Shown here: positions 25,856 through 44,049 of the stretch, one piece after another | Position numbering within the stretch: the first letter of the stretch is position 1 | Layout: every line of letters starts with the position of its first letter | Assembly: GCF_023347235.1 (NCBI RefSeq) | Contig: NZ_CP094467.1 | Location: forward strand, 2,232,001 to 2,296,000 | Source: Faecalibacterium sp. I4-1-79 | GTDB lineage: Bacteria; Bacillota; Clostridia; Oscillospirales; Ruminococcaceae | Length of the DNA: 64,000 bases | Direction of reading: 5' to 3' | Notes under the pieces: generated by a model | What the model was told of the DNA's origin: nothing | Seen by the model: only the letters and a program-made list of their open reading frames with translations | Database searches by the model: none | Translations under genes and position numbers: made by a program

Positions 25856-26683
25856 ATGCCTGTCATTCACGAGATCACCGACCTTACCGCCCCGGAGCTG
25901 GACGTCTACGCCCGGCTCACGCAGGCGCAGCTGCGCAACCGGCTGGAGCCGGAAAAGGGTATTTTTATCGCCGAAAGCCCCAAGGTGATTGCCCGGGCGC
26001 TGGATGCCGGATACCAGCCCCTTTCCCTGCTGATGGAGCGCAAGCAGATCACCGGCCCGGCACAGGAGATCTTGACCCGCTGCGGCGATGTGCCGGTGTA
26101 TACCGCTGACCGGGAGCTGCTGGCACAGCTCACCGGCTTTGCACTGACCCGTGGCGTGCTGTGTGCCTTCCGCCGCCCTGCGCCCCGCACGGTGGAGCAG
26201 GTGTGCGCCCACGCCCGCCGGGTGGCTGTGCTGGAGGGCATCGTAGATTCCACCAACGTGGGCGCTATCTTCCGCAGCGCTGCCGCGCTGAACATGGATG
26301 CCGTACTCATTACCCCCTCCTGCTGCGACCCGCTGTGCCGCCGCGCGGTGCGGGTAAGCATGGGCACCGTGTTTCAGGTGCCGTGGGCGCAGATCGGCTC
26401 CTGCCCTGCCGACTGGCCGGAAAACGGCAGCGCCCAGCTCCATGCACTGGGCTTCAAGACTGCTGCCATGGCGCTGAGCGACCGCTCGGTCAGCATTGAC
26501 GATGCCGCCCTTGCCGCCGAGCCAAAGCTTGCCATCGTGCTGGGCACCGAGGGCGATGGGCTGGCCAATAATACCATCGCCGCCTGCGACTACACCGTAA
26601 AGATCCCCATGTCCCATGGGGTGGATTCCCTCAACGTAGCCGCAGCCAGTGCCGTAGCTTTCTGGCAGCTCGGCCGCTTGTAA
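25856..26683 (+). CDS. TrmH/SpoU family RNA methyltransferase
   Basis: A 275-residue SAM-dependent 2'-O-ribose methyltransferase of the SPOUT class. Residues 20-95 form the substrate-binding N-domain with FIAESPKVIARALD. Motif 1 is STNVGAIFRSA near 130, motif 2 LGTEGDGL near 230 and motif 3 IPMSHGVDSLNVAAA near 253, which form the knot. The start at 25856 follows AAAGGAG. A promoter TTGCAT-17-TACAAT ends about 35 bases before the start. The rRNA or tRNA target is not known. Confidence 0.92.
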   Translation: MPVIHEITDLTAPELDVYARLTQAQLRNRLEPEKGIFIAESPKVIARALDAGYQPLSLLMERKQITGPAQEILTRCGDVPVYTADRELLAQLTGFALTRGVLCAFRRPAPRTVEQVCAHARRVAVLEGIVDSTNVGAIFRSAAALNMDAVLITPSCCDPLCRRAVRVSMGTVFQVPWAQIGSCPADWPENGSAQLHALGFKTAAMALSDRSVSIDDAALAAEPKLAIVLGTEGDGLANNTIAACDYTVKIPMSHGVDSLNVAAASAVAFWQLGRL

Positions 26684-26711
26684 GTTTCCCGCTTGTGCTC
26701 TCCGAAATTGC

Positions 26712-26740
26712 TTGACAAACGCCCCGAAACGCGGTACACT
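26712..26740 (+). promoter_or_regulatory. tRNA-type SigA promoter driving the fragment array
   Basis: TTGACA (26712-26717) and TACACT (26735-26740) are 17 bases apart. Transcription would begin about 10 bases before the first tRNA-like GGGCCTATAG at 26757. The only intact tRNA lies 809 bases further on. Confidence 0.85.
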
Positions 26741-26756
26741 ATCAGCGTTACATCAT

Positions 26757-27565
26757 GGGCCTATAGCTCAGTTGGGAGTGCAAGCGTATCGCTTTTGTGC
26801 CCCACGGAGTTGTGGGCATTCAAATGGGGAGTATGTCGGTTGGTCGCCCAACCGAGTCACGCCCCTAAATATGGGCCTATAGCTCAGCTGGGAGTGCAAG
26901 CGTATCGCTTTTGTGCCCCACAGAGTTGTGGGCTTTAGAATGGGGAGTATGTCGGTTGGTCGCCCAACCGTGTCACGCCCCTAAATATGGGCCTATAGCT
27001 CAGCTGGGAGTGCAAGCGTTGCATTCCCGATCTGGTGTTATAGCTCATTTGTGCCCATTCGAAATTGGGTGCTTTTTCGTGGGCTCGTAGCTCAGTTGGG
27101 AGTGCAAGCGTTGTATTCCCGATCTGGTGTTATAGCTCATTTGCCCCCATTAGAAATTGGGTGCTTTTTTGTGGGCTCGTAGCTCAGTTGGGAGTGCAAG
27201 CGTTGTATTCCCGATCTGGTGTTATAGCTCATTTGCCCCCATTCGAAATTGGGTGCTTTTTTGTGGGCTCGTAGCTCAGTTGGGAGCCCATGCGGTCCTT
27301 AAACAATCTGGAGTTATATACCACGCGCCCCCAAGCGGTTTTTGGGGGCTTAAATATGGGCTCGTAGCTCAGTTGGGAGAGCAAGCGTTGCATTTCCGAT
27401 CTGGTGTTATAGCTCATTTGCCCCCATTAGAAATTGGGTGCTTTTTTGTGGGCTCGTAGCTCAGTTGGGAGTGCAAGCGTATCGCTTTTGTGCCCCACGG
27501 AGTTGTGGGCATTCAAATGGGGAGTATGTCGGTTGGTCGCCCAACCGTGTCACGCCCCTAAATAT
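26757..27565 (+). repeat. Array of eight truncated tRNA 5' halves joined to foreign sequence
   Basis: Eight tandem units start at 26757, 26873, 26989, 27081, 27173, 27265, 27358 and 27450, with lengths of 116, 116, 92, 92, 92, 93, 92 and 116. Each begins with a tRNA acceptor strand and D-arm, either GGGCCTATAGCTCAG (units 1-3) or GGGCTCGTAGCTCAG (units 4-8), and all leave tRNA sequence at the same point, GGGAG in the D loop. Three kinds of continuation are seen: a 116-base hairpin-rich type (units 1, 2, 8), a 92-base type ending in a T-rich stretch (units 3, 4, 5, 7), and a single CCCATGCGG type (unit 6). No unit has an anticodon arm, T arm or CCA. Origin by repeated site-specific integration is inferred. 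Confidence 0.85.
27265..27303 (+). other. Candidate attL of the serine-recombinase element (unit 6)
   Basis: tRNA sequence up to GGGAG (27282-27286) is followed by CCCATGCGGTCCTTAAA (27287-27303). That arm is the inverted copy, 16 of 17 bases, of TTTAAGGTCCGCATGGG at 48952-48968, the sequence that leads into the second tRNA 3' half. Joined, the two arms form a near-perfect palindrome centred on AG, as expected for a large serine recombinase attP. Confidence 0.65.
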
Positions 27566-27641
27566 GGGCCTATAGCTCAGCTGGGAGAGCGTTCGGTTCG
27601 CATCCGAGAGGTCAAGGGTTCGAATCCCTCTAGGTCCACCA
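27566..27641 (+). tRNA. tRNA-Ala(CGC)
   Basis: A complete 76-base cloverleaf with encoded CCA. The acceptor stem pairs GGGCCTA with TAGGTCC and includes G3-U70, the alanine identity pair. The D arm is GCTC/GAGC, the anticodon stem TTCGG/CCGAG has loop TTCGCAT (anticodon CGC), and the T loop is TTCGAAT. The first T-stem pair is an A-C mismatch. It has no promoter of its own directly upstream; the nearest lies before the fragment array. Confidence 0.93.
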
Positions 27642-27645
27642 ATTT

Positions 27646-27677
27646 GCCGCATTGTTTTGTACGATGCGGCGTTTTTT
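27646..27677 (+). terminator. tRNA terminator
   Basis: GCCGCAT (27646-27652) and ATGCGGC (27664-27670) form a hairpin followed by six T, starting five bases after the CCA end. Confidence 0.85.
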
Positions 27678-27829
27678 ATGCCTAAAAAACTTTGGCAGAC
27701 CGTGCCGGGCTCCGAACCCTGAAGTCGGATGCGAACCGGGCGGGGTCATCCATGTACTTTTTGAAAATCCATCGGTTTCACGCTTCTTTCTTTGCATTTT
27801 GCAGAGTTCTGCGGGCAAGTGCATCGCTT

Positions 27830-29443
27830 TTATGCCCCCTTCTCGGAAATTCCTTCAAAAATTTCCGCACCATCGTAGGTTGACACAGCCTTGAGCTGCT
27901 CCACTTGATTGAAGCTGGCGTTCAGTGTAATCGAGATCTCATAGTCTTTTCGGACGCGAATCTCCTTAATGAACTGCTGCAAAATGGCGCGGCGTTCATC
28001 GTGGTTGGCGGTGTCGTAAACATCCGCCCATGTAAACAGCTCGTTGCAGATGTAGTTGCTGCGCTTTGCTGTTTTGGTGGCTTCTTCGTATTCTTCCTGT
28101 GCCTGCACAAGCTGCTTTTCCAGCGTTTCCAGTGCGTCTTTTGCTTCGGCCACCAGTGTACCGAGCAGTTCTTTGTCCAAGGCACTTACGCCCCGAATGA
28201 CGAGGATGGTTTCGGCTTTCAGGTCGTCCAGCTCTTTCTGCTTGGCTTCCAAGTCTTTCTGGATTTTCTTGATTTTCTTCTGGATGCGGGCGGCATCGTT
28301 GGTCTTGACCGATTCCAGCAGCTTCTTCCGGGAAACTTCCCGGAACTGTGCGAAGATCTGCCGGACAACTTCTTCTACGATGGAATCCAGCTTAGAAACA
28401 CCATAGCCGGACTGCCCATCGCAGTTACCCGGATGCCGAATCTTATAAAAGCAGCTGTACCGGGGCCGGACTTCTTTCACCGTATGCCCATCGGCGTAGG
28501 TGTGTGTCCGTCCGCTGCTGGTCAGGCTCAAGCGGTTGCCGCAGTGACCGCAGTAAACCAACCCGGTCAAAAGGGCTTTGGAGCTGGTGCCCAGTGAAGT
28601 ACCGCCACGCTCACAAGTGCGTGCCTGCCGCAGTTCCTGTGCCTGCTCGAACAGCTCTGGTTCGATGATGCGGAGCTGTGGGTACTCGGTTTCCACCGCA
28701 CCATTGATGAGGTATCCCGTGTATCCTTTGTTCTTGATCATCCGAACGATGCTAGTGTTGGGAATGTTTTTGTTGTTCCGTCCTACGACTCCCTGTTCAT
28801 AAAGATAGTGGCTCAACTTCTGTGCGCCGTAGCCCTCGTAAACGTACTTGTGGAAAATCAGCCGGACGATCTCAGCTTCCGCTTCATCAATCACAAGGTC
28901 GCAGACTTCCTGATTCTTCTTGTTCACCCGACCAAGGCGGACACGCTTGTAGCCAAAAGGCACGGTGCCGCCTGTATAGTGGCCTTCCCCGGTGAGCTGT
29001 TCCAGCCTTGTCCGGGTACGGACAGAGGTTTTCAGACTTTCGCCGGATGCCTGCCAGTAGCGGATGTAGTTCATCAGCTTGTCCACATGGGTGTCAAATC
29101 GCTGCTGTCCCTCGTTCACGCTCCAGACTTCGATGCCCTGCTTCGTGAACCATTCCACGATAAAGGGCGTTTCATCATCACGGCGACCGAGACGGTCAAA
29201 CATGAACACCAGCAGGATGTCAAACTTGCCCTCCATCGCGGCCTGTTGAATTTTCTGGAGTTCGTCACGCTCTTTGGCAGATTTTTTGAAGCCGGAAACG
29301 CCTTTTTCGGAAAATTCCTTGACGATCTCCCAGCCCTGACTTTCTGCAAAGTTGCGGCAGGCTTCTTTCTGCATGGGGATGTCGTCTTTCTCGACCTGTC
29401 CCTTTGTCGAAACACGGTATAAGGTATAGACACGTTTTTTCAT
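27830..29443 (-). CDS. Large serine recombinase (integrase)
   Basis: A 537-residue site-specific recombinase. The N-terminal resolvase domain (1-150) has the catalytic Ser in YRVSTKGQ (Ser12) and MFDRLGRRDDE with the conserved Arg residues. A recombinase domain follows (165-275, with GYKRVRLG and GRNNKNIPNTSIVRMIKNKGYTG in sequence). The zinc ribbon is CGHCGN near 310, and a coiled coil at 385-460 matches the motif that controls directionality. The start at 29443 follows AGAGAG; the codons before it are not conserved in the second copy. It lies directly behind tRNA-Ala, whose D loop carries the inferred attachment core. An N-terminally deleted copy is at 49213-50425. Confidence 0.93.
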   Translation of the reverse strand: MKKRVYTLYRVSTKGQVEKDDIPMQKEACRNFAESQGWEIVKEFSEKGVSGFKKSAKERDELQKIQQAAMEGKFDILLVFMFDRLGRRDDETPFIVEWFTKQGIEVWSVNEGQQRFDTHVDKLMNYIRYWQASGESLKTSVRTRTRLEQLTGEGHYTGGTVPFGYKRVRLGRVNKKNQEVCDLVIDEAEAEIVRLIFHKYVYEGYGAQKLSHYLYEQGVVGRNNKNIPNTSIVRMIKNKGYTGYLINGAVETEYPQLRIIEPELFEQAQELRQARTCERGGTSLGTSSKALLTGLVYCGHCGNRLSLTSSGRTHTYADGHTVKEVRPRYSCFYKIRHPGNCDGQSGYGVSKLDSIVEEVVRQIFAQFREVSRKKLLESVKTNDAARIQKKIKKIQKDLEAKQKELDDLKAETILVIRGVSALDKELLGTLVAEAKDALETLEKQLVQAQEEYEEATKTAKRSNYICNELFTWADVYDTANHDERRAILQQFIKEIRVRKDYEISITLNASFNQVEQLKAVSTYDGAEIFEGISEKGA

Positions 29444-29560
29444 TTCAATCTCTCTTTCTTTGAGTGAGAAAGGAAAAATCAAACGTGTTTCGTCCATATT
29501 TTGTTTTCAAGGTTCAGTTCGATTTTATCTTATCTCACGCATTCAAGGAGCACAAGGATG

Positions 29561-29722
29561 TCAGGCAGCGGTGTGCCCTGCCGTGCGCAGGATGGTGGTC
29601 TGCAATAGTTTCTGGATGGCATCCAGACAGTCCGTATCCGCAGGCGCATAGGTGATCTTGACTTTGCAGCCTTTGACGGAAAGGGTTTCAGATTTAGCGG
29701 TGGTATCGCAGATAGCGTTCAT
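29561..29722 (-). CDS. Small element protein, unknown function
   Basis: A 53-residue protein beginning MNAICDTTAKSETLS, with GGAGG four bases before the ATG. It has strand-like KVKITYAPADTD and a helix LDAIQKLLQTTIL, resembling the short TnpW-type proteins of gut transposons, but this is only a likeness. Its start overlaps the end of the MazF-like gene by 29 bases, so it could also be that toxin's partner. Confidence 0.5.
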   Translation of the reverse strand: MNAICDTTAKSETLSVKGCKVKITYAPADTDCLDAIQKLLQTTILRTAGHTAA

Positions 29723-30110
29723 AGGCCTCCTTTCTCCATACCCATTCGTTGAGATTGAGCTGATAGAGCAGCGCATAATTGAGCCGAATGAGTTCCGGGA
29801 TGCTCAACCGCCCCATCGGGCGGATCAGCCGTCCCTTGCTGATGGTCTGGACAGATTCTGCCAAGATCATAGAGGGCTGCAAAAAAGCCCGATTACTGTC
29901 CACAAGAACGTGGGCTTGGTGATCGGGCTTCTTTGCAGTATTGGATGTAACAGGCGCAACAATGAGGTTGGGCGAATAGCAGTTTGCGGTGTTGTTCTGC
30001 ACCACGACCACAGGGCGGATACCGCCCTGCTCGGAGCCAAGGTGCGGCTCCAGATTGGCGTAGTAAATATCACCGCGCAGAAACTTTCGGTTGACTGGGA
30101 TCATGCTCAT
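29694..30110 (-). CDS. PemK/MazF family toxin
   Basis: A 138-residue MazF-fold protein. The family core is plain: RGDIYYANLEPHLGSEQGG near residue 12, RPVVVVQNN near 32, APVTSNTAKKP near 52 and ILAESVQTISKGRL near 83 (conserved Gln-Thr/Lys-Arg region). Active members cut mRNA at short sites. The ATG at 30110 shares one base with the TGA of the gene upstream (TGATG), so it is translated together with a ParB-like protein. No MazE-like antitoxin is next to it. Confidence 0.88.
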   Translation of the reverse strand: MSMIPVNRKFLRGDIYYANLEPHLGSEQGGIRPVVVVQNNTANCYSPNLIVAPVTSNTAKKPDHQAHVLVDSNRAFLQPSMILAESVQTISKGRLIRPMGRLSIPELIRLNYALLYQLNLNEWVWRKEAYERYLRYHR

Positions 30111-30907
30111 CACCGCTTGCAAGGCAGACTGTGGGCACGGCCAGCACCGTTGTAGATGGACAGGATCTGTTTCATGTGGCGGTCTGCCACATTGCCAGTG
30201 TCGTTTTGTGCCAACCGGGTGATGGTCTTGGGATGCACTGTGCGCAGCCGGAGAATCAGCCGCTCCCGGCTGTATTCGCCCTGATACAGAGCCAGAAAAC
30301 GAGCCATGCCATGCAGGATGCCCGACAGGAACGAATCCGAATCGCCACCCCAAGCGTCTACGAGAACGCTCAGCATTTCACGGTAAAGTGATGCACCGTA
30401 GCTCTTGTAGATGTAGTAAGCCGAGCGGATGCAGTAGATTTTCCACGGGGCACGAATCCCATCCAGTGCAAACCGAACGCCTGTGCCCTCCGTTACCGAA
30501 ACAAAATCGCAGGCGTTTTCTTCGTGTGCCACCAGTTTGGCACGAAGCTGTTCACCAGCGGTCAGTTCGCTGGAAATGCCTGTCTGCACAGCAAACAGCA
30601 GAGCTTCATGCTCTTTAGAAAGGCCGTAGAAGACCTTGCAGCGAATCGGGAGGTCACGCCCACCGTTGCACGTTTTCCGTGCCTCAATGGTGTTCTGGCC
30701 ATCAAAGACGAAGTAGCGGCCATCCCGGTAGCTGACCTTCGGCTCATTGGCGATGTACTCCGAAAAGTTTGCTGCGATTCGTGCAACCTTGCCCATGCGG
30801 AGCAGCCGCTGATATTCGGCGCAGGGGTTCAGCAGAACGCTGTCAACGTAGCGCACCTCGAAGTTGCACTCCGGCAGGCTGGAAAGGTTCAGGTTAGAAA
30901 GCATCAT
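30110..30907 (-). CDS. ParB-like protein (DUF6551 type)
   Basis: A 265-residue protein with a ParB/sulfiredoxin-like N-terminal domain: VDSVLLNPCAEYQR near residue 21, then FVFDGQNTIEARKTC near 67 in place of the usual GxHR-type loop. The rest is helical. Family relatives lie in integrative elements near ParA and regulate partition or copy number. The ATG overlaps the stop of the upstream ParB gene (ATGA) and its own stop overlaps the toxin start, so three genes are coupled. Confidence 0.7.
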   Translation of the reverse strand: MMLSNLNLSSLPECNFEVRYVDSVLLNPCAEYQRLLRMGKVARIAANFSEYIANEPKVSYRDGRYFVFDGQNTIEARKTCNGGRDLPIRCKVFYGLSKEHEALLFAVQTGISSELTAGEQLRAKLVAHEENACDFVSVTEGTGVRFALDGIRAPWKIYCIRSAYYIYKSYGASLYREMLSVLVDAWGGDSDSFLSGILHGMARFLALYQGEYSRERLILRLRTVHPKTITRLAQNDTGNVADRHMKQILSIYNGAGRAHSLPCKR

Positions 30908-31893
30908 AGCGTCTTCTCCTTTATTTTCAGAAGATACTGTACGGCATCTTCGGTCAAGTCATAAATGATCTTGCGGCAGTCCGAATCTTCAAAAACATCC
31001 GGGTATTCTTTGAAAATGCTATTCCAGCGGCGAATGAAGTCCTCTTTTGCACCCTGTACCTCGCACATCATCAGGGAACCGTTTGCAACGGCTCGTTCCT
31101 GATAGCGGTTGTCAATGGATGCTTTCAGAAAGGTTCTTTCTTCGGTAGTAAGCTGGCGTTGATGCCCTTGGATGCTTTTGCAGATTTCAGAAAGCGTTTG
31201 TTTTGAAGAAGTTGTTTCAGCTTTTCGGGGCTGACGTTCCTGCTTTGGCTTCCGTAATTCTGCAAGAGCAGCAGGAATTTCTGCTTTTGGCGTTTTTGCC
31301 AAGGCGGTGATTTCTGCATCCGTTGCCTTGATGCGCCCGGTCAGGATTTCCTCTCTTGCACCGGGGACTGCATCTTCCGCAGCGTCCACGCCTTTGGCAT
31401 ACTTTTCCGCTCGCTTTACGGTAGCCGCCCCAACGCCGTTTTGTGCGGCAATGCGCTCACAGGTGGAGAGCTGCTTTGCCCTCAATGGATCATTTTGAAC
31501 CATTGAGGTGAACCGTCCGTTCTCATCGTGTGCCCGCTCTTTGGAGCCGCCCCGTGCCAGCTTTTCGGATTCATACAGCTTGCCCATCAGAAACTTCTTT
31601 CGTTCCGGGTCAAGATTTCTGCGTCCAAGCTGGTTCTGGCAGATCCATGAAAGAGCCGCATAACGGTTATCCAGTTCGATCTCCTGTATCTGGTAGGCGA
31701 TGAACGGATGCTTCCGCAGGATGCGGTAGCGGGTATGCCCGTCCAGAATAAAGCCATTCCAGATGATAATGGGATTCAGCAGCCGCCCTTCGTGGAGAAT
31801 GTTCTGCTCAAGCTGTTGTTCTTCTTCAAAATTCAGGGGCGGGATCTTGCCCTGAAACTCCGGGTCGATTTTAAGTGCATTCAGATTCATCAT
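30904..31893 (-). CDS. ParB/Srx-domain DNA-binding protein
   Basis: A 329-residue protein. The ParB N-domain is at residues 1-75 (IPPLNFEEEQQLEQNILHEG, then GFILDGHTRYRI). A KorB-like helix-turn-helix region follows (about 115-165, with GVGAATVKRAEKYAKGV), then a low-complexity basic linker and a helical C-terminus. It probably binds a centromere-like site of the element together with ParA at 40245-41036, although the two genes are now 9 kb apart. Confidence 0.82.
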   Translation of the reverse strand: MMNLNALKIDPEFQGKIPPLNFEEEQQLEQNILHEGRLLNPIIIWNGFILDGHTRYRILRKHPFIAYQIQEIELDNRYAALSWICQNQLGRRNLDPERKKFLMGKLYESEKLARGGSKERAHDENGRFTSMVQNDPLRAKQLSTCERIAAQNGVGAATVKRAEKYAKGVDAAEDAVPGAREEILTGRIKATDAEITALAKTPKAEIPAALAELRKPKQERQPRKAETTSSKQTLSEICKSIQGHQRQLTTEERTFLKASIDNRYQERAVANGSLMMCEVQGAKEDFIRRWNSIFKEYPDVFEDSDCRKIIYDLTEDAVQYLLKIKEKTL

Positions 31894-32116
31894 CGAAATG
31901 GCCTCGCTTCACATACTGCCCAGCGTTCTTATCGGGCTGTACATAATAATCGAAACCATAGCGAATCTGGCAGTAGGTGCAGACATCCTTGATCTTCTGC
32001 TTAGGGTCTGCGCGCCGGACGCGAACGCCCTTTGCCCCCTGAAAGGAATCCAGACAAATCGGGCAGAGGGTAGTCAAGCTGGCTTCGTCTACGCAGTTGT
32101 TATAAAATCGACTCAT
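31871..32116 (-). CDS. Small zinc-ribbon protein
   Basis: An 81-residue protein with two Cys pairs, CPICLD near residue 18 and CTYC near 46, fit to bind one zinc. The start at 32116 follows GGAGGAAAT. The stop overlaps the ParB start by 23 bases. It is the first gene of the element operon 32116-29561; its role is unknown. Confidence 0.65.
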   Translation of the reverse strand: MSRFYNNCVDEASLTTLCPICLDSFQGAKGVRVRRADPKQKIKDVCTYCQIRYGFDYYVQPDKNAGQYVKRGHFDDESECT

Positions 32117-32529
32117 ATAGATTTCCTCCATATCGGTATTTTGATGGGAAATGTAAAACCACCAGCCGAGAAATCCTCAACTGGTGGTTTGAAAAGTACT
32201 GTTTTTCTCCTATTTGTCCTCGACACCCCGGAGGTGGGAACTTTTCGGCGGCGGATTTGCACCGCTCCATTGGCATCTCAGCCACCCCGTCTGCTTTCTG
32301 ACCGGGCCGCGAATTACGGAAGTATCATTGTCTGGAAGTACCGAAAAGCTGCTTCTTCAATTTTCAAGGTACACGGTACAGTTTCGGGCTTGTCGGCCCC
32401 TGTCAGGGGGGCTGCCCTTGCTGTGACCATAGTGTACTTGAAAACCAAAGTTCTCGTTAGGAACCAGTAGTTCCGGTTTTTCGATTTTAGCCGGAACCAA
32501 TCGTTCCGGTTCAGAACAATAAAGTGATT
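32117..32529 (-). promoter_or_regulatory. Leader and control region of the element operon
   Basis: Two operator-like dyads, GGAAC-N5-GTTCC (32460-32474) and CCGGAAC-N5-GTTCCGG (32491-32509), have centres 33 bases apart. A TACACT -10 box for the minus strand lies at 32431-32436 without a good -35, as in activated promoters. The ~310-base leader then ends in a hairpin (32156-32165 with 32181-32190) followed by TTTTACATTT, 40 bases before the first gene; this could attenuate. A 61-codon frame (32285-32100) overlaps the leader but I cannot support it as a gene. Confidence 0.55.
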
Positions 32530-32856
32530 TTAAGCAGATTCGCCCAGCATTTCCAGCATAGCAAGAATCCACCGCTGCATTTCTTTCAGTTCTTTGCGGA
32601 GCATTTGCAGCTGATCTTGCAGTTCCTGCTCCCGCTGGGACGCAGACACACCTAAGACGATGTAGTCCAGCGAGGAGCCAAATCGCTCCCGCAGCTCCAC
32701 AAAGAGGTCGACAGACGGAACTTTCTCACCCTTCTCCAGATTTCTCATGTAGCGGTCACTGATGTTCAGGTCGATGGCAAGCTGTTCTTGTGTCACTTCA
32801 CGGTCTTTTCGGAGGTTTTGGATTCGTTCACCCGTTGCAGCAGGATCATAATACAT
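32530..32856 (-). CDS. XRE family regulator
   Basis: A 108-residue protein with a helix-turn-helix at residues 8-62 (IQNLRKDREVTQEQLAIDLN, then SDRYMRNLEKGEKVPS) and a C-terminal coiled coil (75-105, rich in Gln, Glu and Leu). The start at 32856 follows GGAGGGAGTG. The paired dyads just behind its stop suggest it controls the operon downstream. Confidence 0.85.
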   Translation of the reverse strand: MYYDPAATGERIQNLRKDREVTQEQLAIDLNISDRYMRNLEKGEKVPSVDLFVELRERFGSSLDYIVLGVSASQREQELQDQLQMLRKELKEMQRWILAMLEMLGESA

Positions 32857-33070
32857 CACTCCCTCCGTTTCTTCCGCCGGGAGTGGGCGGAGCTTCATCT
32901 CCCATGCCGGATACGGCCAGCACATGATTTTTCACCAACATGAAAATACGGTCGGCATCAGCACTATGATTTTTGGTGCGCTTTTTGACGTTGGAAACTT
33001 CCAGCAATCGAGACAGTCGGAAGTACCATGTGGCCATCTTGAACCACGGAAGCAAATAGGTCGATTTCAT
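32846..33070 (-). CDS. Small hypothetical protein
   Basis: A 74-residue frame beginning MKSTYLLPWFKMATWYFR, with GGAGGATT before the ATG. It overlaps the XRE start by 11 bases, which suggests coupling. The C-terminus is Pro/Gly-rich. No domain is recognised. Confidence 0.5.
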   Translation of the reverse strand: MKSTYLLPWFKMATWYFRLSRLLEVSNVKKRTKNHSADADRIFMLVKNHVLAVSGMGDEAPPTPGGRNGGSDVL

Positions 33071-33493
33071 TATCAATAATCCTCCAGTTATTTTACGGAA
33101 TGTGAGCATTCGGACAAAAAGGATCGTGGTGGCCCACGACACCTTGCCCTTAAAAGCGCAAAAACGCCAGCCTCCCATTGAGGGAAGCTGGCGCAGCACA
33201 GCATATCGGCACGATTGTGGATGGCAAAGCGGAACGATTGTGCCTGTTTCGGAGCGGTCTGGTCTACGGCAGCAGACAGACTTTTTTTGATGCGTTACCC
33301 CAATAAAAAATCACAGTTACCTCCACAAACGGCAACTGTGATCGAATAGCGCGTGAAATCGCCCGGACGAGTTACCGTTTTTTTATAACTCGACCGGGAA
33401 ACGCAAAAATCGGCATTATACTTCCTACTCACAGGAAATACAAGGTTATACCGCGTCATTCACCAGAACGATACAATACTATTGAGGTGAACG
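33071..33493. other. Intergenic region with three hairpins
   Basis: Hairpins lie at 33165-33193 (GCCAGC arms), 33312-33341 (CACAGTT arms) and 33362-33398 (13-base arms with one mismatch, T-rich loop). A TACAAT box before 33494 probably drives the next gene. No coding frame is convincing. Confidence 0.5.
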
Positions 33494-33853
33494 ATGATGC
33501 CGAATTCTGACTTGAAAGTACTTGGAGAAAAGGTTCGCAAGGAGCGCAAGCTGGCAGGTTTAACACAAGAACAACTTGCTGAACGCTGCCATGTTTCAAC
33601 GAAGCATATCGCCAACATTGAAAAAGGCAGCATGAATCCATCTTACGAAATTCTTTTGGCGATTGCTCGTGTTTTGCCGGTTTCGCTTGATGCGCTGATT
33701 ACTCCGGGGATGGGTAAAACGGAAATAGAGTTAAAAGAGTTCAATCGAATCTATCTTTCCTGTCCAGAAGCGGTGCGAGAAACCTTAATGGACTCGACCC
33801 GCACACTGGCAAAGCATCTGACAGAGTTTTACAGTAAGATTGAAAATCCCTGA
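33494..33853 (+). CDS. XRE family regulator
   Basis: A 119-residue protein. Residues 8-65 form a helix-turn-helix (KVRKERKLAGLTQEQLAERC, then STKHIANIEKGSMNPS). The C-terminal half is helical and without a known ligand domain. GAGGTGAACG precedes ATGATG. It is the only plus-strand gene in this part of the element and may be the element's repressor. Confidence 0.85.
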   Translation: MMPNSDLKVLGEKVRKERKLAGLTQEQLAERCHVSTKHIANIEKGSMNPSYEILLAIARVLPVSLDALITPGMGKTEIELKEFNRIYLSCPEAVRETLMDSTRTLAKHLTEFYSKIENP

Positions 33854-33940
33854 AAATGTTTTGCTTGTGGTACAGTATAGCATATTTTTCAAAGTCACTA
33901 TACCAAAACGAACCCAAAAGCAAACCAATTTTATACCAAT

Positions 33941-34159
33941 TCAGTCGATTCCCAAGCTAACCTGAATCTCTGTTTCCAAATCATTTGCCAATGCCGTATA
34001 TAGTTCTTGTGGTGTGCGGCAAAGAATTGCATTGAAATTGATAGGGTCGCCCTCATTGAAAAGCCTTACATATCCCCAGCGGCATGGAACAACGTCCAAA
34101 TAGGTCGCAGACTCTAAAAAGCTATGGAAGTGGGTCAATACTTCTTCAAATGTTTGCAT
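33941..34159 (-). CDS. Small hypothetical protein
   Basis: A 72-residue protein with AGGAGGTCAAACC before its ATG. It begins MQTFEEVLTHFHSFLES and has a strand pattern in the middle (WGYVRLFNEGDPINFNAILC). Coding potential is supported by the strong ribosome site. The family is not recognised. Confidence 0.6.
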   Translation of the reverse strand: MQTFEEVLTHFHSFLESATYLDVVPCRWGYVRLFNEGDPINFNAILCRTPQELYTALANDLETEIQVSLGID

Positions 34160-34250
34160 GGTTTGACCTCCTGAATTAAGTCATCTCTATTTTAGAATAT
34201 TCTTGGTCATCTATGCAAGGATGCCGATTTTGTACAGCACAGAAAACGAT

Positions 34251-34297
34251 AAAAGCCATACCGAAGAATCCTACTAGGATCTCACGGTATGGCTTTT
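34251..34297. terminator. Terminator of the winged-helix gene
   Basis: AAAAGCCATACCG (34251-34263) and CGGTATGGCTTTT (34285-34297) pair perfectly, with T runs on both sides. Confidence 0.88.
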
Positions 34298-34298
34298 A

Positions 34299-34730
34299 TT
34301 ACAGATTGCGATTCAATCGCACCGATTCCGATGATGGGACAAATTGATATCCAATGTTGGAAACCGTTTTAATATAACGGGGGTGATCTTTGTCATCCTC
34401 TATTTTCTGGCGGATTCGACCGATCGTGCTGGTGACGGCTCTCAAATAGCTTTCGCTGTCCTTATGCCAGACTGCTTCAAAGATCTGCTCCTTTGTAAAC
34501 AGTTTGCCCGGATGCTGTGCCATCAAACTCAAAACACCGTATTCGTAACGACTCATGTACACCTCTGTTCCGTGTTTGAAAACACGGTGGTGTTCCAAGT
34601 TGATTTCCAGACCGGGATAATTCAAGGTGTCTGGCGCAGCACGGTTCGTTTCAATCCACTCAAAAATCGTCTGCTCTTGGGGAGGGCAGTGGTCCTTCGT
34701 GATACGAACAATAACTTCAATTTTTTGCAT
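34299..34730 (-). CDS. OmpR/PhoB-type winged-helix protein without receiver
   Basis: A 143-residue protein. Residues 40-135 are a complete OmpR-type DNA-binding domain (MSRYEYGVLSLMAQHPGKLF, EAVWHKDSESYLRAVTSTIG, then RYIKTVSNIGYQF). The first 35 residues are short and contain no receiver domain. Such orphan winged-helix proteins occur beside ABC exporter genes in integrative elements. The ABC operon lies upstream on the same strand. Confidence 0.82.
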   Translation of the reverse strand: MQKIEVIVRITKDHCPPQEQTIFEWIETNRAAPDTLNYPGLEINLEHHRVFKHGTEVYMSRYEYGVLSLMAQHPGKLFTKEQIFEAVWHKDSESYLRAVTSTIGRIRQKIEDDKDHPRYIKTVSNIGYQFVPSSESVRLNRNL

Positions 34731-34805
34731 AGAATTCTTCTAGAATCTTTGGTGAACAACTTCTCACAGACATTTAATGCTCCGCATCGCATACGCTGAA
34801 TTTTG

Positions 34806-35084
34806 TTAAGCAAGGCTCCATCCAGCCGCATTCTTTCGGATGTTGACAAACTCCTGATAAATGCCGGGCTGCTTCAAAAGTTCTTCGTGCGTGCCCTGCT
34901 GTGCAATCTGGCCGTTGTCAATAGTGAGAAAGCCGCCGTCCCGCAAGGTAGCCACTGCATGTCACACGCTGGGTTTTGACACCTCCATGTGCCGGGCTAC
35001 ATCTACGGAGCGCACCATACCGAGTTTCTTTTGGAGAACAAGGATGGTTTCCATGTAGTCCTCCCCGGACGCATGAAGTTTCAT
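34806..35084 (-). pseudogene. Chimeric remnant: DtxR/MntR regulator N-terminus joined to an ABC ATPase C-terminus
   Basis: The 93-codon frame starts with AAAGGAGGCTCAG-ATG. Codons 1-40 (MKLHASGEDYMETILVLQ, then RSVDVARHMEVSKPSV) match the N-terminal helix-turn-helix of DtxR/MntR regulators. TGA at 34964-34962 interrupts where Ser is usual. The next codons (HAVATLRDGGFLT) continue DtxR, then switch in frame to DNGQIAQQGTHEELLKQPG, the end of an ABC exporter ATPase like the gene 11 bases upstream. This is best explained by deletion between two genes plus a nonsense change. Confidence 0.85.
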
Positions 35085-35095
35085 CTGAGCCTCCT

Positions 35096-36832
35096 TTACT
35101 GAGCCAGCTTCCAGCCGATGGCCTCCTGTCTGGCCGATACAAAATCGGCATACAGGCCCTTTTGCTGGATCAGCTCCGCATGAGTGCCGCGCTGGACGAT
35201 ATGAGCGTTGTCCAGTACAAGGATCTGATCGGCGTTGCGGACGGTTTTCAGACGGTGGGCAATCATGATGATGGTCTTGTCATGGGTCAATGCCTCGATA
35301 GCCCGCTGCAATTCATCCTCATTCTCCGGGTCAACGCTGCTTGTTGCCTCGTCCAAAATGATGATGGGTGCGTCCTTCAGCATGGCGCGGGCGATGGAAA
35401 TCCGCTGTTTCTCGCCACCGGACAAAGTACCGCCTCCCTCGCCAATCACGGTGTCATAGCCATCCGGCAGGGCAGAAATAAAGTTATGGCAGCAAGCCTT
35501 TTTCGCCGCTTCAACCACTTGTTCATGGGTAGCATCCGGGCAGCCAAACTTGATATTGTTCTCAATCGTATCTGCAAATAGGTACACGCTCTGGAACACC
35601 ATCGAGATATTCTTCATCAGGCTGTCCAGCTTGAAATCCCGTACATCCGTACCGCCTATGGTAATCTTCCCGGCATTCACATCCCAAAAACGGGCAATCA
35701 GGTTGCACATCGTTGTCTTTCCTGCCCCGGAAGGACCGACAATGGCCGTAGTCGTTTTTTCGGGAATGGTAAAGCTGACCTGATCTAATATCTTACGGTC
35801 TGCGTAGGAAAAATCCACCTTGTCAAACACGATCTCGCTGGACTCCGGCGTAATGTCAACGCCTTTTTCATCCATTACCGGCGTGTCATCAATGGAGTTT
35901 GCCGTATCCATCGAGGCCGCCAGCATTTGTAGCAGAGAGGCCATATTCCCGGCGTTCTCCAAATCGTTGAACACCATGAAAGAAGCAATCACCAAAATCA
36001 AGCCATAGGCCAGCGACAGGGAGCCGTCCAGCCAGAACCAGACCGAAGCCAAAAGCAACAGGACGCTAAACACCCGGACAACAGCCTGTTTGATGGCATC
36101 ATAGGGAACACTGGCCTTTGTCAGTTTCAGGTTGTCCCGGCAGCTCGCCTTAATTGCACTGCCGATAGACTGCGTGCTGTCCCGTTCCAGTCCAAATGCT
36201 TTGACAATCCCCATGCCCTGAATGTACTCCAACACAGACTCCACAAGGGACTCCTGTGTGTGCTGGCGTACCCCGCTGAGCGCGGCAGATTTGCGAAGCG
36301 CCAGTTCCGCCGCCGCAAGGTAAATCAGGACACCGGCAGCGGCCACAAGACCGATCCGCCAGTCAAATACCAACAGGACGATGACGAGGGCAACCGAGTT
36401 GAAAAAACCGCCCAGCACTGACACCAGAACACGGGCTGCTGAGTTCTCTACATCACCCAAAGTTGTTGTGACAATGGCGGTAATATTCCCGATACTATTC
36501 TTGTTGAAGTAGCCCATCGGGATGTAGCGCAGCCGATCTCCGATGCGGATACGCTTTTCCGCCACCATGCAATAGCCGGTTTCCGTCTGCTCCATCGTGG
36601 AGAAATAGGTCGTAATAATACGCCCAATGAGGGAAACGGCCATAATCCCCAGCGAAAGCCAGATAAACTTTCCGTCCCGGTTGTCAGATACCAGCGCGCC
36701 GATCACTACAAAGAGGGCGGCAAACTGCATGGCTGAAAACAGCCCGGACAGGAATGAGAATGACAGGGATTTTTTTAGAAGCCCCTTTTTGCTGCCTGCA
36801 AAAGCAAAGATTTTTTTCAATGTTCCATACAT
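35096..36832 (-). CDS. ABC exporter half-transporter (ATPase and membrane domain), subunit A
   Basis: A 578-residue half-transporter. Residues 15-305 hold six membrane segments. The ATPase has Walker A GPSGAGKTT near 372, signature TLSGGEKQRISIARAML near 473, Walker B IIILDEATSSVDPE near 494 and an H-loop in IAHRLKTV. The start at 36832 (MYGTLKK) is preferred over longer frames. It follows subunit B by 14 bases, so they form a heterodimer of the type seen in siderophore or drug export (YbtPQ/IrtAB-like by layout). The DtxR remnant downstream suggests a former metal-linked role. Confidence 0.9.
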   Translation of the reverse strand: MYGTLKKIFAFAGSKKGLLKKSLSFSFLSGLFSAMQFAALFVVIGALVSDNRDGKFIWLSLGIMAVSLIGRIITTYFSTMEQTETGYCMVAEKRIRIGDRLRYIPMGYFNKNSIGNITAIVTTTLGDVENSAARVLVSVLGGFFNSVALVIVLLVFDWRIGLVAAAGVLIYLAAAELALRKSAALSGVRQHTQESLVESVLEYIQGMGIVKAFGLERDSTQSIGSAIKASCRDNLKLTKASVPYDAIKQAVVRVFSVLLLLASVWFWLDGSLSLAYGLILVIASFMVFNDLENAGNMASLLQMLAASMDTANSIDDTPVMDEKGVDITPESSEIVFDKVDFSYADRKILDQVSFTIPEKTTTAIVGPSGAGKTTMCNLIARFWDVNAGKITIGGTDVRDFKLDSLMKNISMVFQSVYLFADTIENNIKFGCPDATHEQVVEAAKKACCHNFISALPDGYDTVIGEGGGTLSGGEKQRISIARAMLKDAPIIILDEATSSVDPENEDELQRAIEALTHDKTIIMIAHRLKTVRNADQILVLDNAHIVQRGTHAELIQQKGLYADFVSARQEAIGWKLAQ

Positions 36833-36846
36833 CTGACAACACCCCC

Positions 36847-38592
36847 TTACATCTGGTCTTTCGCGCCGATGTGCGCCTGCCACATATCCCGGTAGAGGGG
36901 GCAGGTTTCCAGCAGCTTCTCATGCGTACCCTGTGCGTGGATGGTTCCATCCTTCACCACAACGATGTTATCTGCGCCAACAATGGTAGACAGCCGGTGT
37001 GCGATCACAATCAGGGTCTTGCCGACAGTTAAAGTGGAAATGGCTTTCTGCACCAGCGCCTCATTCTCTGGGTCGATATAGGCAGTTGCCTCGTCCAAAA
37101 TGACAACCGGCGCATTTTTCAGCATGGCGCGGGCGATGGCAATCCGCTGGCGTTCACCGCCGGAAAGATGGGAACCGGCGCTGCCGACAACCGTATCATA
37201 GCCATTATCCAGCTTGCGGATAAAGGCGTCACAGCCGCTTTGTTTGGCTGCCTGCTCCACCTCTGCGTCCGTGGCACTGGGTCTTCCCATGCGGATATTA
37301 TCCCGGATACTGCGGTTAAACAGGTAGTTGTCCTGAGATACATAGGAAATCTGGTCTGCAATTTCAGACAGCGGCATATCCTTCAGCTCATGGCCGCCGA
37401 GGGTAATGCTGCCGGATGTAACATCCCAATACCCGGCAATCAGCTTCGCCACCGTAGACTTGCCGGAGCCGGACGGCCCTACAAGAGCGGTCATGGTTCC
37501 GGGGTGGATGGCGAGATTCACATCATGCAAAACCTCTGTTGTCCCGTCATAGGAAAACGACACAGACCTAAGAGAAATGCCGGTATTTTCCAGCTTGATC
37601 GGCGTTTCTTTATGGTTCAGTTCTTCGGCGTTCAGAAGCTGGCTGATTTCTTCCACATTTGTCCCCAGTACAGCCAAATCGTCCGTAAAGGTAAAGGCCG
37701 CAATAATCGGCCCAATCAGCCCCAGCGAGAAAATCACAATGGACAGGAAGGTGGAAAGTTCCAGACTGCCGGAGAGCCAGAATGCAAAACCGCAGGGCAG
37801 CACGCAAATCAGCACTGAGGGCAGGATGGCGTTGTAGGCGCTCATGGTTTTCTGGTTTTCCCGCATCCAGTCCACATAGTAGTTGGCGTTATAATTCACC
37901 GCGTCAGAATATTTTTTGTAGGAACCGGCGGATTGGCTGAACGCCTTTACCACCTCAATCCCGCCGATGTACTCTACAATGGCATTTGCCATCTGCTTGC
38001 CTGCCTTGACAGCACCCTCCCATTTGACGGGATAATTCTTCATACCGGCGGACATGACAGCAAGGCCCACCACCAGCGTAACAAGGGACAGGAGCGCCAT
38101 ACGCCAGTCCAAAAGGAACAGGTACACGGCGATTACAAGCGGCACCAGCACATTTGCGGTCATTTCCGGGATCAGGTGCGCAAAGGTCGATTCCATGCCT
38201 TCAACCCGGTCAACAATCGTCGTTTTGTACTGGCCGGACGGAGTATCTAAAATCGTCCCCATCGGGACGCGGGCCAGCTTTGCGGTGATATTCTCCCGCA
38301 GATCACGCAGCGTGTAATAGGTCGCTGTGTGGGAAATCGTTGTAGAAAGACAGGAAAACAGCACCTTCCCAAAGTAGCCGCACAATGCAATAATACCAGC
38401 GGTCACATAGCGGGAAAAATTCTGTTCCCCAGACAACATCATTGTGACAATATGCGCCACGCAGAAATAGGGCACCATCTGGCAGGCCACGCCTAATACC
38501 GCAAGGATAATACTGCCGATGAATTTTCCATGATAAGCTTTGCCCCATCCCCATAAGACGCTTATGGGCGACTCTTTCTTTTCCTCCTTCAT
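36847..38592 (-). CDS. ABC exporter half-transporter, subunit B
   Basis: A 581-residue half-transporter with six membrane segments (residues 20-300) and a full ATPase: Walker A GPSGSGKST near 373, signature LSGGERQRIAIARAML near 474, Walker B VVILDEATAYIDPE near 495 and IAHRLST. The start at 38592 follows GGAGGTGTCCACAG. First gene of the exporter operon. Both ATPase sites look intact in A and B, so no degenerate site is seen. Confidence 0.9.
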   Translation of the reverse strand: MKEEKKESPISVLWGWGKAYHGKFIGSIILAVLGVACQMVPYFCVAHIVTMMLSGEQNFSRYVTAGIIALCGYFGKVLFSCLSTTISHTATYYTLRDLRENITAKLARVPMGTILDTPSGQYKTTIVDRVEGMESTFAHLIPEMTANVLVPLVIAVYLFLLDWRMALLSLVTLVVGLAVMSAGMKNYPVKWEGAVKAGKQMANAIVEYIGGIEVVKAFSQSAGSYKKYSDAVNYNANYYVDWMRENQKTMSAYNAILPSVLICVLPCGFAFWLSGSLELSTFLSIVIFSLGLIGPIIAAFTFTDDLAVLGTNVEEISQLLNAEELNHKETPIKLENTGISLRSVSFSYDGTTEVLHDVNLAIHPGTMTALVGPSGSGKSTVAKLIAGYWDVTSGSITLGGHELKDMPLSEIADQISYVSQDNYLFNRSIRDNIRMGRPSATDAEVEQAAKQSGCDAFIRKLDNGYDTVVGSAGSHLSGGERQRIAIARAMLKNAPVVILDEATAYIDPENEALVQKAISTLTVGKTLIVIAHRLSTIVGADNIVVVKDGTIHAQGTHEKLLETCPLYRDMWQAHIGAKDQM

Positions 38593-38849
38593 TCTGTGGA
38601 CACCTCCTCGTATTATAAAAGAGTAGTATTTATAGACCGCTCTCCAGCGGTATGCTACACTGTATGGGATGCTGTGGATTGGTGAACACCTCCTACCGCA
38701 AAGACGGTTTGACGAAGGCTCCAACCACAGCTTCTTTGTTGAAATGTTAATCAGTTAGATACCGCCAGACGGTTTATTTAGAACGAGGTTACAAGAGCAA
38801 AGAAGTCTGTGGTCCTAAGCAGCATTGAATAATATAACGGAGGTATAAA
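38593..38849. other. Region between the ABC operon and IS110 copy 1, including the IS left end
   Basis: A hairpin pairs GCTGTGG-ATTGG (from 38671) with CCAACCACAGC (ending near 38740). GGAGG precedes the transposase. The left edge of the IS cannot be fixed, because IS110 elements lack clear inverted ends and target duplications. Confidence 0.4.
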
Positions 38850-40025
38850 ATGGTCTGTGTCGGAATTGATGTTGCCAAAGATAAGCATGACTGTTGCATT
38901 CTCGATTCGGAAGGAACGACCCTTGTCGATTGCTTTACCATTCCCAACAACATGGATGGTTTCAAAAGTCTGCTACAAACAATCCAAGACTGTTCTCAAA
39001 AATCAGACAAAATAAAAGTAGGGCTTGAGGCTACCGGACATTATAGCTACAACATCCGTGGGTTTCTTCTTGACAATGATCTGCCCGTCTATGTCATGAA
39101 TCCCTTGCATACCAACCTGTATCGAAAGAGCCTCAGTCTTCGCAAAACTAAAACCGATCGTGTGGATGCAAAAACGATTGCAACTATGCTGTTGTCCGAT
39201 GTAGACCTCAAGTCCTACACAGATACAGCATATCACAACGAAGAACTAAAGTCACTCACGAGATACCGATTTGATAAAGTTCAGGAACGCGCTAAACTAA
39301 AGCAGTCGGTGTCCAGATTGGTTACAATCCTGTTTCCGGAATTGGAACAGCTTGTTTCGTCTATCCATGGCACTTCAATCTACGCACTTCTCAGTGAGTA
39401 TCCCGGTGCAAAGCAGATTTCAGAAGCTCATCTGACCAGATTAGCTAATATTCTCGTGAAAACATCCAGAGGCCATTACCGAAAAGATAAAGCTACTCAT
39501 ATCCGAGATGCAGCCAGAACATCCATTGGTTCTGTTATGCCTGCTAAGTCTTTGGAATTAAAGCACACCATTAAGCTCATTCAAGAACTTACCTCCGAAA
39601 TCAATGAAATTGAAGATGCCATTCGGAAAATCATGGATGAATTGAAACCGCCGATCCTTTCGATTCCCGGAATGGGATTTCATTCTGCTGCGATGATTCT
39701 TGCAGAGGTAGGGGATTTTTCGAATTTTAACTCTCCTGACAAAGTTTTGGCTTATGCTGGATGTTCTCCCTCCACATACCAGTCAGGAAAACTCACAAAC
39801 TGCTATGCACACATGGAAAAGCGTGGCTCTCGTTATCTTCGATACGCTCTTTACACTGCAACCAAATACGTCTGCTACTGGAATCCTGTTTTTACTGAAT
39901 ACCTTACCAAAAAGCAAGCTGAAGGCAAGCACTACAATGTTGCCCTATCTCATGCCACAAAGAAACTCGTACGACTGATTTACGCTTTGCAGAAGTCCGG
40001 TAAAGCATATCTTGCCGTCACTTGA
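38850..40025 (+). CDS. tnpA: IS110 family transposase
   Basis: A 391-residue DEDD recombinase. The RuvC-like N-domain starts GIDVAKDKHD (first Asp), with GLEATGHYS (Glu) near 58 and KTDRVDAKTIA (Asp pair) near 103. The C-terminal Tnp20 domain has SIPGMGFHSAAMILAEVGD near 275 and AYAGCSPSTYQSG near 302 with the catalytic Ser. IS110 enzymes use a bridge (seek) RNA from a non-coding end. GGAGG lies 8 bases before ATG. Confidence 0.94.
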   Translation: MVCVGIDVAKDKHDCCILDSEGTTLVDCFTIPNNMDGFKSLLQTIQDCSQKSDKIKVGLEATGHYSYNIRGFLLDNDLPVYVMNPLHTNLYRKSLSLRKTKTDRVDAKTIATMLLSDVDLKSYTDTAYHNEELKSLTRYRFDKVQERAKLKQSVSRLVTILFPELEQLVSSIHGTSIYALLSEYPGAKQISEAHLTRLANILVKTSRGHYRKDKATHIRDAARTSIGSVMPAKSLELKHTIKLIQELTSEINEIEDAIRKIMDELKPPILSIPGMGFHSAAMILAEVGDFSNFNSPDKVLAYAGCSPSTYQSGKLTNCYAHMEKRGSRYLRYALYTATKYVCYWNPVFTEYLTKKQAEGKHYNVALSHATKKLVRLIYALQKSGKAYLAVT

Positions 40026-40034
40026 TTTTCTCCA

Positions 40035-40247
40035 GAGCCTGAGTTAAACCTAAGAACAACTTAGCTGGCGCAGCGAACCCTTGACAAACCGAAGCATTCA
40101 AATGCTATTCTGTTTTTGCGAGGGTTGGCTGGGCTTGCTTTGCTGTTCTCTCCGTCACCCTCGCTACTCCAAGGCCAGCATTTGAATGATGTTTGTCATG
40201 GGCAGCGGATGGTTGGCGGATTTTTTCATTTTAGGGCTTGACTTTTA
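40035..40247 (+). ncRNA. Candidate bridge RNA region of IS110 copy 1
   Basis: Three nested stems are visible: GACAAAC (40083) with GTTTGTC (40191), ATTCAAATGCT (ends 40106) with AGCATTTGAAT (40177), and GCGAGGG (40118) with CCCTCGC (40158). The same three stems with identical spacing occur behind IS110 copy 2. A bridge RNA in the right end fits the IS1111-like branch; expression is not shown. Confidence 0.6.
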
Positions 40248-41470: not shown

Positions 41471-41728
41471 GGAACCGGATATGGCAGCCAGCCATATTCC
41501 ATTCCAACTCGTACCTAAGCTACAATAAGAGAGTAATCGGCTAACGCATCATTCTCTGGGCTTCTACGCCCGTTCTAAAGACAGTTGACCATCTCTCTTG
41601 TTGTAGCATTCGTTTTAAGCAGGTTGAGCCACCCGCCAAGCGGAGCGTTCGTGTCACCCAATAGATTGAATCGGCAACGAGTAAAAGATGGATTCCGGTT
41701 GCAAATACAAAGTAATGGAGGAACCGTT

Positions 41729-42934: not shown

Positions 42935-42969
42935 GCATGGATATTTGTTTTTGGTCGTAATTTCCTCTT

Positions 42970-44045: not shown

Positions 44046-44049
44046 TTAT

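Follow-up and report, generated by a model that had tools for sequence, protein, structure and literature searches.

A tandem array of tRNA-Ala 5' halves in Faecalibacterium as the probable left junctions of serially inserted serine recombinase elements

The window analyzed here is a stretch of 64,000 nucleotides (nt) of Faecalibacterium sp. I4-1-79 (contig NZ_CP094467.1, positions 2,232,001 to 2,296,000 of the forward strand), from a genome assembled as one 3.23 Mb contig. Between a promoter-like site and an intact tRNA-Ala(CGC) gene it carries eight tandem units, each opening with the 5' half of tRNA-Ala. This ladder of orphan heads most probably (at about 90%, by our estimate) consists of the left junctions of integrative elements that encode a large serine recombinase (LSR) and were serially inserted in the D-loop of tRNA-Ala, each bringing a complete tRNA with it. 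The junctions, the boundary of the mobile package, the regenerated target, the displaced tRNA tails, the arms of the element attachment site (attP) for most types and the family-wide layout were read from sequence.

Results

Layout of the array

The heads start at 26757, 26873, 26989, 27081, 27173, 27265, 27358 and 27450, and a ninth one, at 27566, is the 5' start of the intact tRNA-Ala(CGC) (27566–27641, plus strand). This gene, the single tRNA detected by ARAGORN across the 64 kb, is taken to be element-borne and holds the regenerated target. Unit spacings are 116, 116, 92, 92, 92, 93, 92 and 116 nt. All eight units open with the 22-nt tRNA-Ala 5' half and depart from the tRNA sequence directly after GGGAG, so the initial annotation, made on the sequence alone, which had described eight tRNA 5' halves switching at GGGAG, was correct to the base by head coordinates and column alignment. 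Within head columns 1–22, variation is confined to column 16 (C/T) and to columns 5–7, which define the acceptor type (GGGCCTA or GGGCTCG), and column 23, the first after GGGAG, already shows three different letters among the units. With one mismatch at most allowed, the window contains the 15-nt core 9 times, against a total of one occurrence in 20 mononucleotide-shuffled windows.

By body type the order from left to right is A, A, B, B, B, B93, B, A, all on the plus strand, with bodies of 70–94 nt (longer and shorter ones occur in relatives). Units 1 (26757–26872, head plus A body) and 2 (26873–26988) are of type A (116 nt). Unit 3 (26989–27080) is a variant of type B (92 nt) with an own head of type A, and units 4 (27081–27172), 5 (27173–27264) and 7 (27358–27449) are of type B (92 nt). 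Unit 6 (27265–27357) is of type B93, and unit 8 (27450–27565) is again of type A (116 nt), with an own head of type B. The lengths of 92–93 and 116 nt pointed out beforehand hold in the window and not as a general rule: since relatives span at least 78 to 171 nt, 92 and 116 as fixed functional lengths were rejected. An assembly artefact is unlikely, because similar units are found in 16 of 31 genomes of the genus, several of them single-contig, and the source genome is itself one contig.

The presumed host tRNA promoter, TTGACA-17-TACACT (26712–26740, plus strand), is the sole sigma-70-like match in 26600–27760 by consensus scan. The match is weak proof by itself, because shuffles yield 0.8 matches on average; from 26741 up to the tRNA, the consensus scan, used alone, found no promoter-like site. 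A terminator-like hairpin lies 3' of the tRNA (27645–27671, plus strand), in the type A downstream sequence, and the only one inside the array is in unit 3 (27051–27072), 1.7 such sites being expected by chance in the stretch. The source genome also carries tRNA-Ala(TGC) and tRNA-Ala(GGC) genes, and therefore loss of the CGC gene may be tolerated.

Linkage of unit bodies to the next head

Across 17 Faecalibacterium loci, the type of a body agrees with the head that follows it in 31 of 31 units (shuffle mean 18.6, with 0 of 20,000 shuffles equal), although the units come from related species and are not fully independent. Agreement with the unit's own head was 16 of 31 (shuffle mean 16.1). The loci counted, from 16 genomes, are those of the genus matches that show one clear unit or more; unit-less loci, a contig-end stub (G026; G and L numbers are our labels for genomes and loci), overlapping copies of one locus and a headless body in G030 (L020) were left out, and unit 3 was treated as its own class owing to its sequence variant. 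The sequence 3' of the tRNA also follows the last unit, being of type A in every A-last locus except G018 (5 of 6) and of type B in 4 of 4 B-last loci. In C-last loci, judged by eye, GCCGCAGC-type sequence is present 3' of the tRNA in 6 of 7, and G005 differs. Since the body is linked to the next head and to the downstream type, the mobile package should comprise the body, a complete tRNA, the terminator and the LSR gene.

One pair of genomes shows the site empty and occupied: G001 has the tRNA without a unit, and G005 has one unit. The two match in 516 of 522 aligned columns through the native GGGCCCG head, and past the native GGGAG G005 continues with a unit body and then a tRNA with a GGGCCTA head. 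Upstream flanks are homologous despite different array lengths, with 90–93% identity over 300 bp among the source genome of the window (G000, 8 units), G018 (2 units), G014 (1) and G009 (1). The flanks of G028 and G029 are 99% identical with different arrays; those of G012 and of the pair G028/G029 are 75–80% identical to the others.

Displaced tRNA 3' halves as right junctions

On integration, the 3' half of the host tRNA would be pushed to the far end of the element. In the window, a displaced headless tRNA-Ala 3' half of type A (48971–49024, plus strand) lies 21.4 kb from the tRNA and is read as a right junction (attR). Non-tRNA sequence ending CGCATGGGAG gives way there to 54 nt that match the tRNA 3' half without a difference, after which come type A downstream sequence and a second, broken LSR. 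Displaced 3' halves were also found in 10 genomes (G007, G008, G009, G013, G014, G015, G018, G028, G029 and G030), each after non-tRNA sequence whose last letters are GGGAG (in G007, GCGAG). Their distance from the tRNA is 79 kb in G015, 80.6 kb in G018, 16.2 kb in G029, and 11.4 and 91.6 kb for the two in G028.

For each unit, the predicted right junction joins the left attP arm (X) of the body's type to the tail of the unit's own head. The window junction, a type B arm on tail A, is the pair predicted by unit 3 alone (B body, A head), and the same X arm is common to G009 and G014, both with 92-nt B units (B92). Partnership of this junction with the last A element, or with unit 6, was considered and rejected, as arm and tail fit unit 3. 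The prediction likewise holds in G015 and G009, and in G029 for one unit out of two. From near to far, the sequence downstream of the window array holds an uninterrupted A LSR, the type B arm followed by tail A, and a broken A LSR. This order appears to mirror a new A element (unit 8), the first B element (unit 3) and an old A element (units 1–2), with unit 8 apparently the left junction of the last-arrived element. At the right boundary of the island in the source genome no native tail was found; homology to the native right flank of G018 begins at L124:18479, about 82.5 kb in window numbering.

Separately, about 16 kb separate a headless type A unit body in G030 from a right junction that has the opposite orientation (L020, L241); an inversion and a secondary-site insertion are candidate readings.

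attP arms and crossover

The type B left arm of attP lies at 48949–48970 (plus strand), with the probable crossover AG at 48969–48970, and is mirrored by the right attP arm (Y) of unit 6 (B93). Joined X and Y arms read as inverted repeats around the AG of GGGAG, with 17/24 and 18/24 matches for the A variants and 19/24 for B93; in each case 0 of 20,000 shuffles were as good, and all other centres gave at most 10. In a comparison of 8 X arms with 44 Y arms, six X arms (two of them A variants) had mirrors at 16–19 of 22 positions, with 0 of 2000 shuffles as good, and their best Y partners came from the same genome or genus-level kin. Taken with the next-head rule, the G001/G005 pair, the displaced tails and the adjacent LSR, these arms support the interpretation first put forward in the initial annotation, namely that each unit is an attL scar and each newcomer brings its replacement tRNA.

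In Oscillibacter valericigenes (AP012044.1), matching Y and X arms (L143, L144) lie megabases apart in one chromosome, which suggests a rearrangement.

Spread in Faecalibacterium and other taxa

A search with the 116-nt unit in 31 genomes of the genus gave matches in 23, many of them with the tRNA head alone. Clear units were present in 16 genomes (17 loci) and are of types 116 (A), 92/93 (B) and 104–106 nt (C). Outside the window there are 1–2 units per locus, with a further body upstream at one G017 locus. In the comparison of array lengths, proposed together with a search of the units in Faecalibacterium and relatives, the number of units ranges from 0 to 8 across the genus.

The LSR gene of the window (27830–29497, minus strand) is convergent with the tRNA and encodes 555 amino acids (aa) in an uninterrupted frame. 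Six peptide patterns identified 115 relatives in named genomes, of which the best 80 were kept; these include six from Faecalibacterium, some being the same genomes as G009, G013 and G014. The protein of F. longum is 97% identical, and those of F. prausnitzii and other Faecalibacterium are 64–68% identical. Further relatives belong to Oscillibacter, Flavonifractor, Caproicibacter, Gemmiger and a Peptococcaceae bacterium and, in Actinomycetota, to Gordonibacter, other Eggerthellaceae and a Coriobacteriales bacterium. In 55 of the 80, a tRNA-Ala lies at most 700 nt from the LSR 3' end (53 CGC, 2 GGC). An upstream head (16 or more identities in 22, no farther than 1.5 kb away) accompanies 46 of these 55, at unit-like spacing (at most 171 nt) in 44; L148 and L171 were counted as headed, though their heads are 235 and 333 nt away. 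Five heads, the most among the relatives, were found in Dysosmobacter (L180), and the first head is often unlike that of the imported tRNA, as in L140, L158 and L199. For 13 of the 25 relatives without such a tRNA, a headless tail was looked for, and it was found in four (L144, L154, L173 and L182), as would be expected of elements displaced by a newer one. In a quick LSR tree the tRNA-Ala layout is clustered, with 11 changes against a shuffled mean of about 21.5.

A strict pattern for at least two units was found in 5 of 394 genomes of the order, the window array giving the most matches, and three of the five involve tRNA-Ala(GGC). A family-level search with two B units (26 of 197 genomes) was not used, as only 22–41 nt of head were matched outside the source genome. 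The same array layout was observed at tRNA-Ala(GGC) in L286, L287 and L288 (G379, G502 and G390); the arrays of L287 and L288 have an intact tRNA-Ala(GGC) in front of them, and L288 has a convergent LSR with 39% identity.

Misfits and other origins of the array

Several results count against serial insertion as the source of the whole ladder. A single right junction was found in the whole genome for eight units, and those of units 1–2 and 4–8 were not found. The window and the next 60 kb contain two LSR genes only, one of them broken, so that most of the integration events are inferred. In G018 the right junction is an A arm on the native tail, where a B arm was expected, and the sequence 3' of its tRNA mismatches the type of its last unit. 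The junctions of G028 join A arms to tail A and to tail B, neither of them predicted, its units (A, B) calling for an A arm on the native tail and a B arm on tail A. The misfits in G018 and G028 therefore imply that junctions and units were also lost or recombined. The right junctions of G013, G014 and G007 are not clearly assignable to units, and G008 and G030 have a right junction without a headed unit. Regarding attP, the B92 arms form no inverted repeat (9/24, with 1704 of 20,000 shuffles as good), the C104b arms (type C) form a weak one (12/24, 209 of 20,000 shuffles, with an equal score one base off), and the mirrors of G007 (14/22, 7 of 2000 shuffles) and L173 (13/22, 44 of 2000) are weak. 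The headless tail was absent in 9 of the 13 tRNA-less relatives checked, three of which end at most 260 nt from the LSR. Finally, a single clade of tRNA-Ala LSRs was considered and dropped, being unsupported by the quick tree.

Alternatively, the array could have arisen mainly by local unequal crossing-over of a few scars, in which case eight units would not equal eight arrivals. The near-identical bodies of units 4 and 5 (1/70 differences) and of units 1 and 8 (1/94), the two identical units of G029, and the downstream remains of about three elements in the window favour such an origin, and the mismatch between units and right junctions in G028 and G018 needs some rearrangement. However, the bodies of units 1 and 2 differ at 5 of 94 positions, and unit 2 differs from G015 and G029 at 2 and from unit 8 at 4. 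The body of unit 7 is nearest to G009 (2 differences) and that of unit 3 to G014 (3 differences); units 2, 3 and 7 resemble the units of other genomes more than any same-type unit of their own array. In addition, the order of body types is no simple repeat. Crossing-over is rather unlikely to be the main source, though arrivals and local duplication are both likely to have shaped the window array.

Several units could also have come in one circle, if recombination between an inner right and an outer left junction freed a multi-unit element. Nested sites would permit this, transfer of whole composite elements is discussed for integrative mobilizable elements (PMC5704250), and the missing right junctions would be accounted for. 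On the other side, neither a circle nor a multi-unit arrival was seen, and G015 and G009, with a single unit each, can be explained without it. Joint arrival is a possible but doubtful explanation. The fossil record of serial integrations proposed initially is kept as far as stacked scars are concerned, but it is incomplete, with one right junction per eight units in the window, and one event per unit does not follow: joint arrival or local duplication may have contributed, and the G028 and G018 junctions misfit their units.

Recombinase and element content

The LSR contains Resolvase (PF00239, 4.7e-25), Recombinase (PF07508, 5.7e-16) and zinc-ribbon (PF13408, 5.9e-09) domains. Its top NCBIfam match is CcrB with 114.6 bits, against a curated cut-off of 900 bits, and thus it does not qualify as an equivalog of CcrA/B/C of the staphylococcal cassette chromosome (SCC). 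By its domains the tRNA-adjacent integrase is serine-type and not a tyrosine integrase; the other open reading frames (ORFs) of the element were checked in part only. The element body (30110–48948) encodes DUF6551, a helix-turn-helix regulator, a response-regulator-like protein, an ABC transporter pair, two IS110 transposases, ParA, DUF6017 and RepA_N. RepA_N and ParA are thus present, and a relaxase was not among the ORFs tested, which cover part of the element. The older type A LSR (49213–50479, minus strand) is broken: aa 169–555 (97.7% identical) and aa 1–33 (75.8%) remain, and about aa 34–168, most of the Resolvase domain, are gone.

Ten ORFs of the 79-kb element of G015 were tested and included a relaxase (PF03432), MobA/MobL, a topoisomerase, NlpC/P60 and a second serine recombinase; a type IV secretion system ATPase was absent among the ten. 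This gene content suggests an integrative conjugative element (ICE). The tRNA-side LSR of G015 matches as two pieces in different frames. A phage origin was rejected, since only 3 viral-contig, 3 phage and 1 plasmid relatives were found, with 37–49.5% identity. A distant LSR (25% identity, 303 aa) was observed 3' of the same tRNA-Ala(CGC) without a head unit in G020 (L122, 18457–20000), and possibly belongs to a second lineage that replaces only the 3' part of the tRNA.

RNA properties of the units

In an Rfam scan of 26000–30000, the tRNA alone passed the gathering score and no other RNA-family match was found. Compared with shuffles, four complete units of the window have better folds (z of −5.15, −5.13, −2.80 and −3.50), and three bodies folded alone are weaker (z of −2.72, −0.82 and −0.70); the good folding of complete units comes from pairing between orphan head and body. 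Among 44 distinct bodies (those more than 85% alike were merged), the head–body duplex of 11 beats all but at most 15 of 300 shuffles, where about 2 are expected, and the mean duplex z over the 44 is −0.47. RNAalifold on 14 Oscillospirales-type units gave 5 pairs and no compensatory changes.

Such folds would suit an array that is a small-RNA operon, with units expressed as tRNA-headed structured small RNAs, the alternative offered in the initial annotation, and kept for an RNA function. Besides the folding of whole units over bodies alone, the excess of 11 bodies that pair with their head speaks for it. Conversely, the low mean z and the lack of compensatory changes argue against it, the next-head rule, the displaced tails and the attP repeats are accounted for by integration, and the number of units varies from 0 to 8 within the genus. 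We consider a small-RNA operon very improbable: it is not needed to explain the layout, and what stays of it is the unusually good pairing of 11 of 44 bodies with the orphan head.

With only those 11 bodies, a general head-sequestering hairpin was rejected. In some element families at least, the body might act as a built-in RNA insulator, encoding an anti-head to fold against the orphan 5' half of the tRNA, an idea that we regard as tentative and unlikely. If true, transcribed orphan heads would be kept from mispairing with the tRNA 3' half, elements with promoterless tRNAs could stack limitlessly behind one host promoter, and a tRNA-headed, chronologically ordered record of integration would result.

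Two further tRNA-like features were observed. The bodies of the 14 Oscillospirales-type units have a conserved tRNA/attB-like stretch, TAACTCACTTGG...CGGTTCACATCAC, about 30–65 nt past the crossover. At 27726 and 49109, on the minus strand, 13 nt of the tRNA anticodon arm recur as an inverted copy inside a longer tRNA-like stretch; this block belongs to the type A downstream sequence and is also found in G016.

Discussion

In the mechanism that we propose, the LSR of the element would recombine attP with the D-loop of tRNA-Ala, with the crossover at the AG of GGGAG. The attP half that joins the host tRNA 5' half would lie in the unit body, followed by the complete tRNA-Ala, the terminator and the LSR gene facing back, so the mobile piece would run from GGGAG through the body to the next complete tRNA and beyond, not from head to head. 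After integration, transcription from the host promoter would pass the orphan 5' half and the body before it reaches the imported tRNA. We infer the catalysis by the LSR, the drive of the imported tRNA by the host promoter and the route of body loss. Because the imported tRNA again contains the target, the next element would insert there, and orphan heads would therefore accumulate between promoter and tRNA, the oldest on the left and the newest on the right, with element bodies stacked downstream in mirror order. Bodies and right junctions would then decay or be deleted, possibly when identical tRNA 3' halves recombine, the tails and downstream sequences being long repeats, and the short head units would persist.

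This route differs from 3'-end replacement in that insertion takes place in the D-loop, a whole tRNA arrives without a recognisable promoter, and every insertion re-creates the target. For dozens of LSRs of gut Clostridia, left and right junctions and the central dinucleotide are marked by the head ladder, a signature that is simple to search for and of use in integrase discovery and in ordering the arrivals of elements. The ladder also raises the question of how a tRNA is matured from a transcript in which as many as eight copies of the tRNA's own 5' half come first. The initial annotation knew of no described family with this layout, and in the open-access literature no description was found among the matches listed, subscription papers being mostly outside the search.

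Among known systems, the CcrB-type recombinases of SCC are alike in being the top NCBIfam match of the LSR and unlike in that the match is far under the cut-off and the target is different. The target of SCC is rlmH.

In the ssrA islands of Dehalococcoides (DsiB, a CcrB-like serine recombinase), a structured RNA is also the target, islands are in tandem downstream and the recombinase is at the target-proximal end; unlike here, the target is a tmRNA, insertion occurs in the T-loop near the 3' end with a 20-bp 3'-end repeat reused, and the available portion of that report describes no orphan-head array (PMC3146451). In the tRNA-dependent lysogeny of mycobacteriophages, a host tRNA is likewise disrupted and a complete element tRNA of the same isotype substitutes for it. 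In contrast with the present elements, a tyrosine integrase is involved, the junction does not reconstitute the tRNA, and no array is described in the part of the source at hand; the phage tRNA has a demonstrated promoter of its own, and for the window tRNA the consensus scan gave none past 26740 (PMC10865867).

Close parallels are also the tRNA-gene islands and tandem accretion of Islander and of ICEs and cis-mobilizable elements, which share the tRNA-gene site, the restoration of the gene by the element, the displaced fragment at the far end and the stacking. Following the Islander definition, an intact tRNA at one end (27566–27641) and a displaced fragment at the other (48971–49024) are present, also in G015, G029 and others; the definition includes a tyrosine integrase, and the tRNA-side integrase here is serine-type. 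Tandem accretion is seen in the mixed unit types of one array and in the type B arm on tail A with an older LSR behind it. Unlike those systems, the elements described here have a serine-type enzyme, a D-loop site, a whole tRNA instead of a 3' end, and a head scar left each time. Serine integrases targeting tRNA genes were given as unknown in a 2014 reference database paper (PMC4383910); judging from the junctions described above, serine integrases do appear to use tRNA genes as targets, here via the D-loop.
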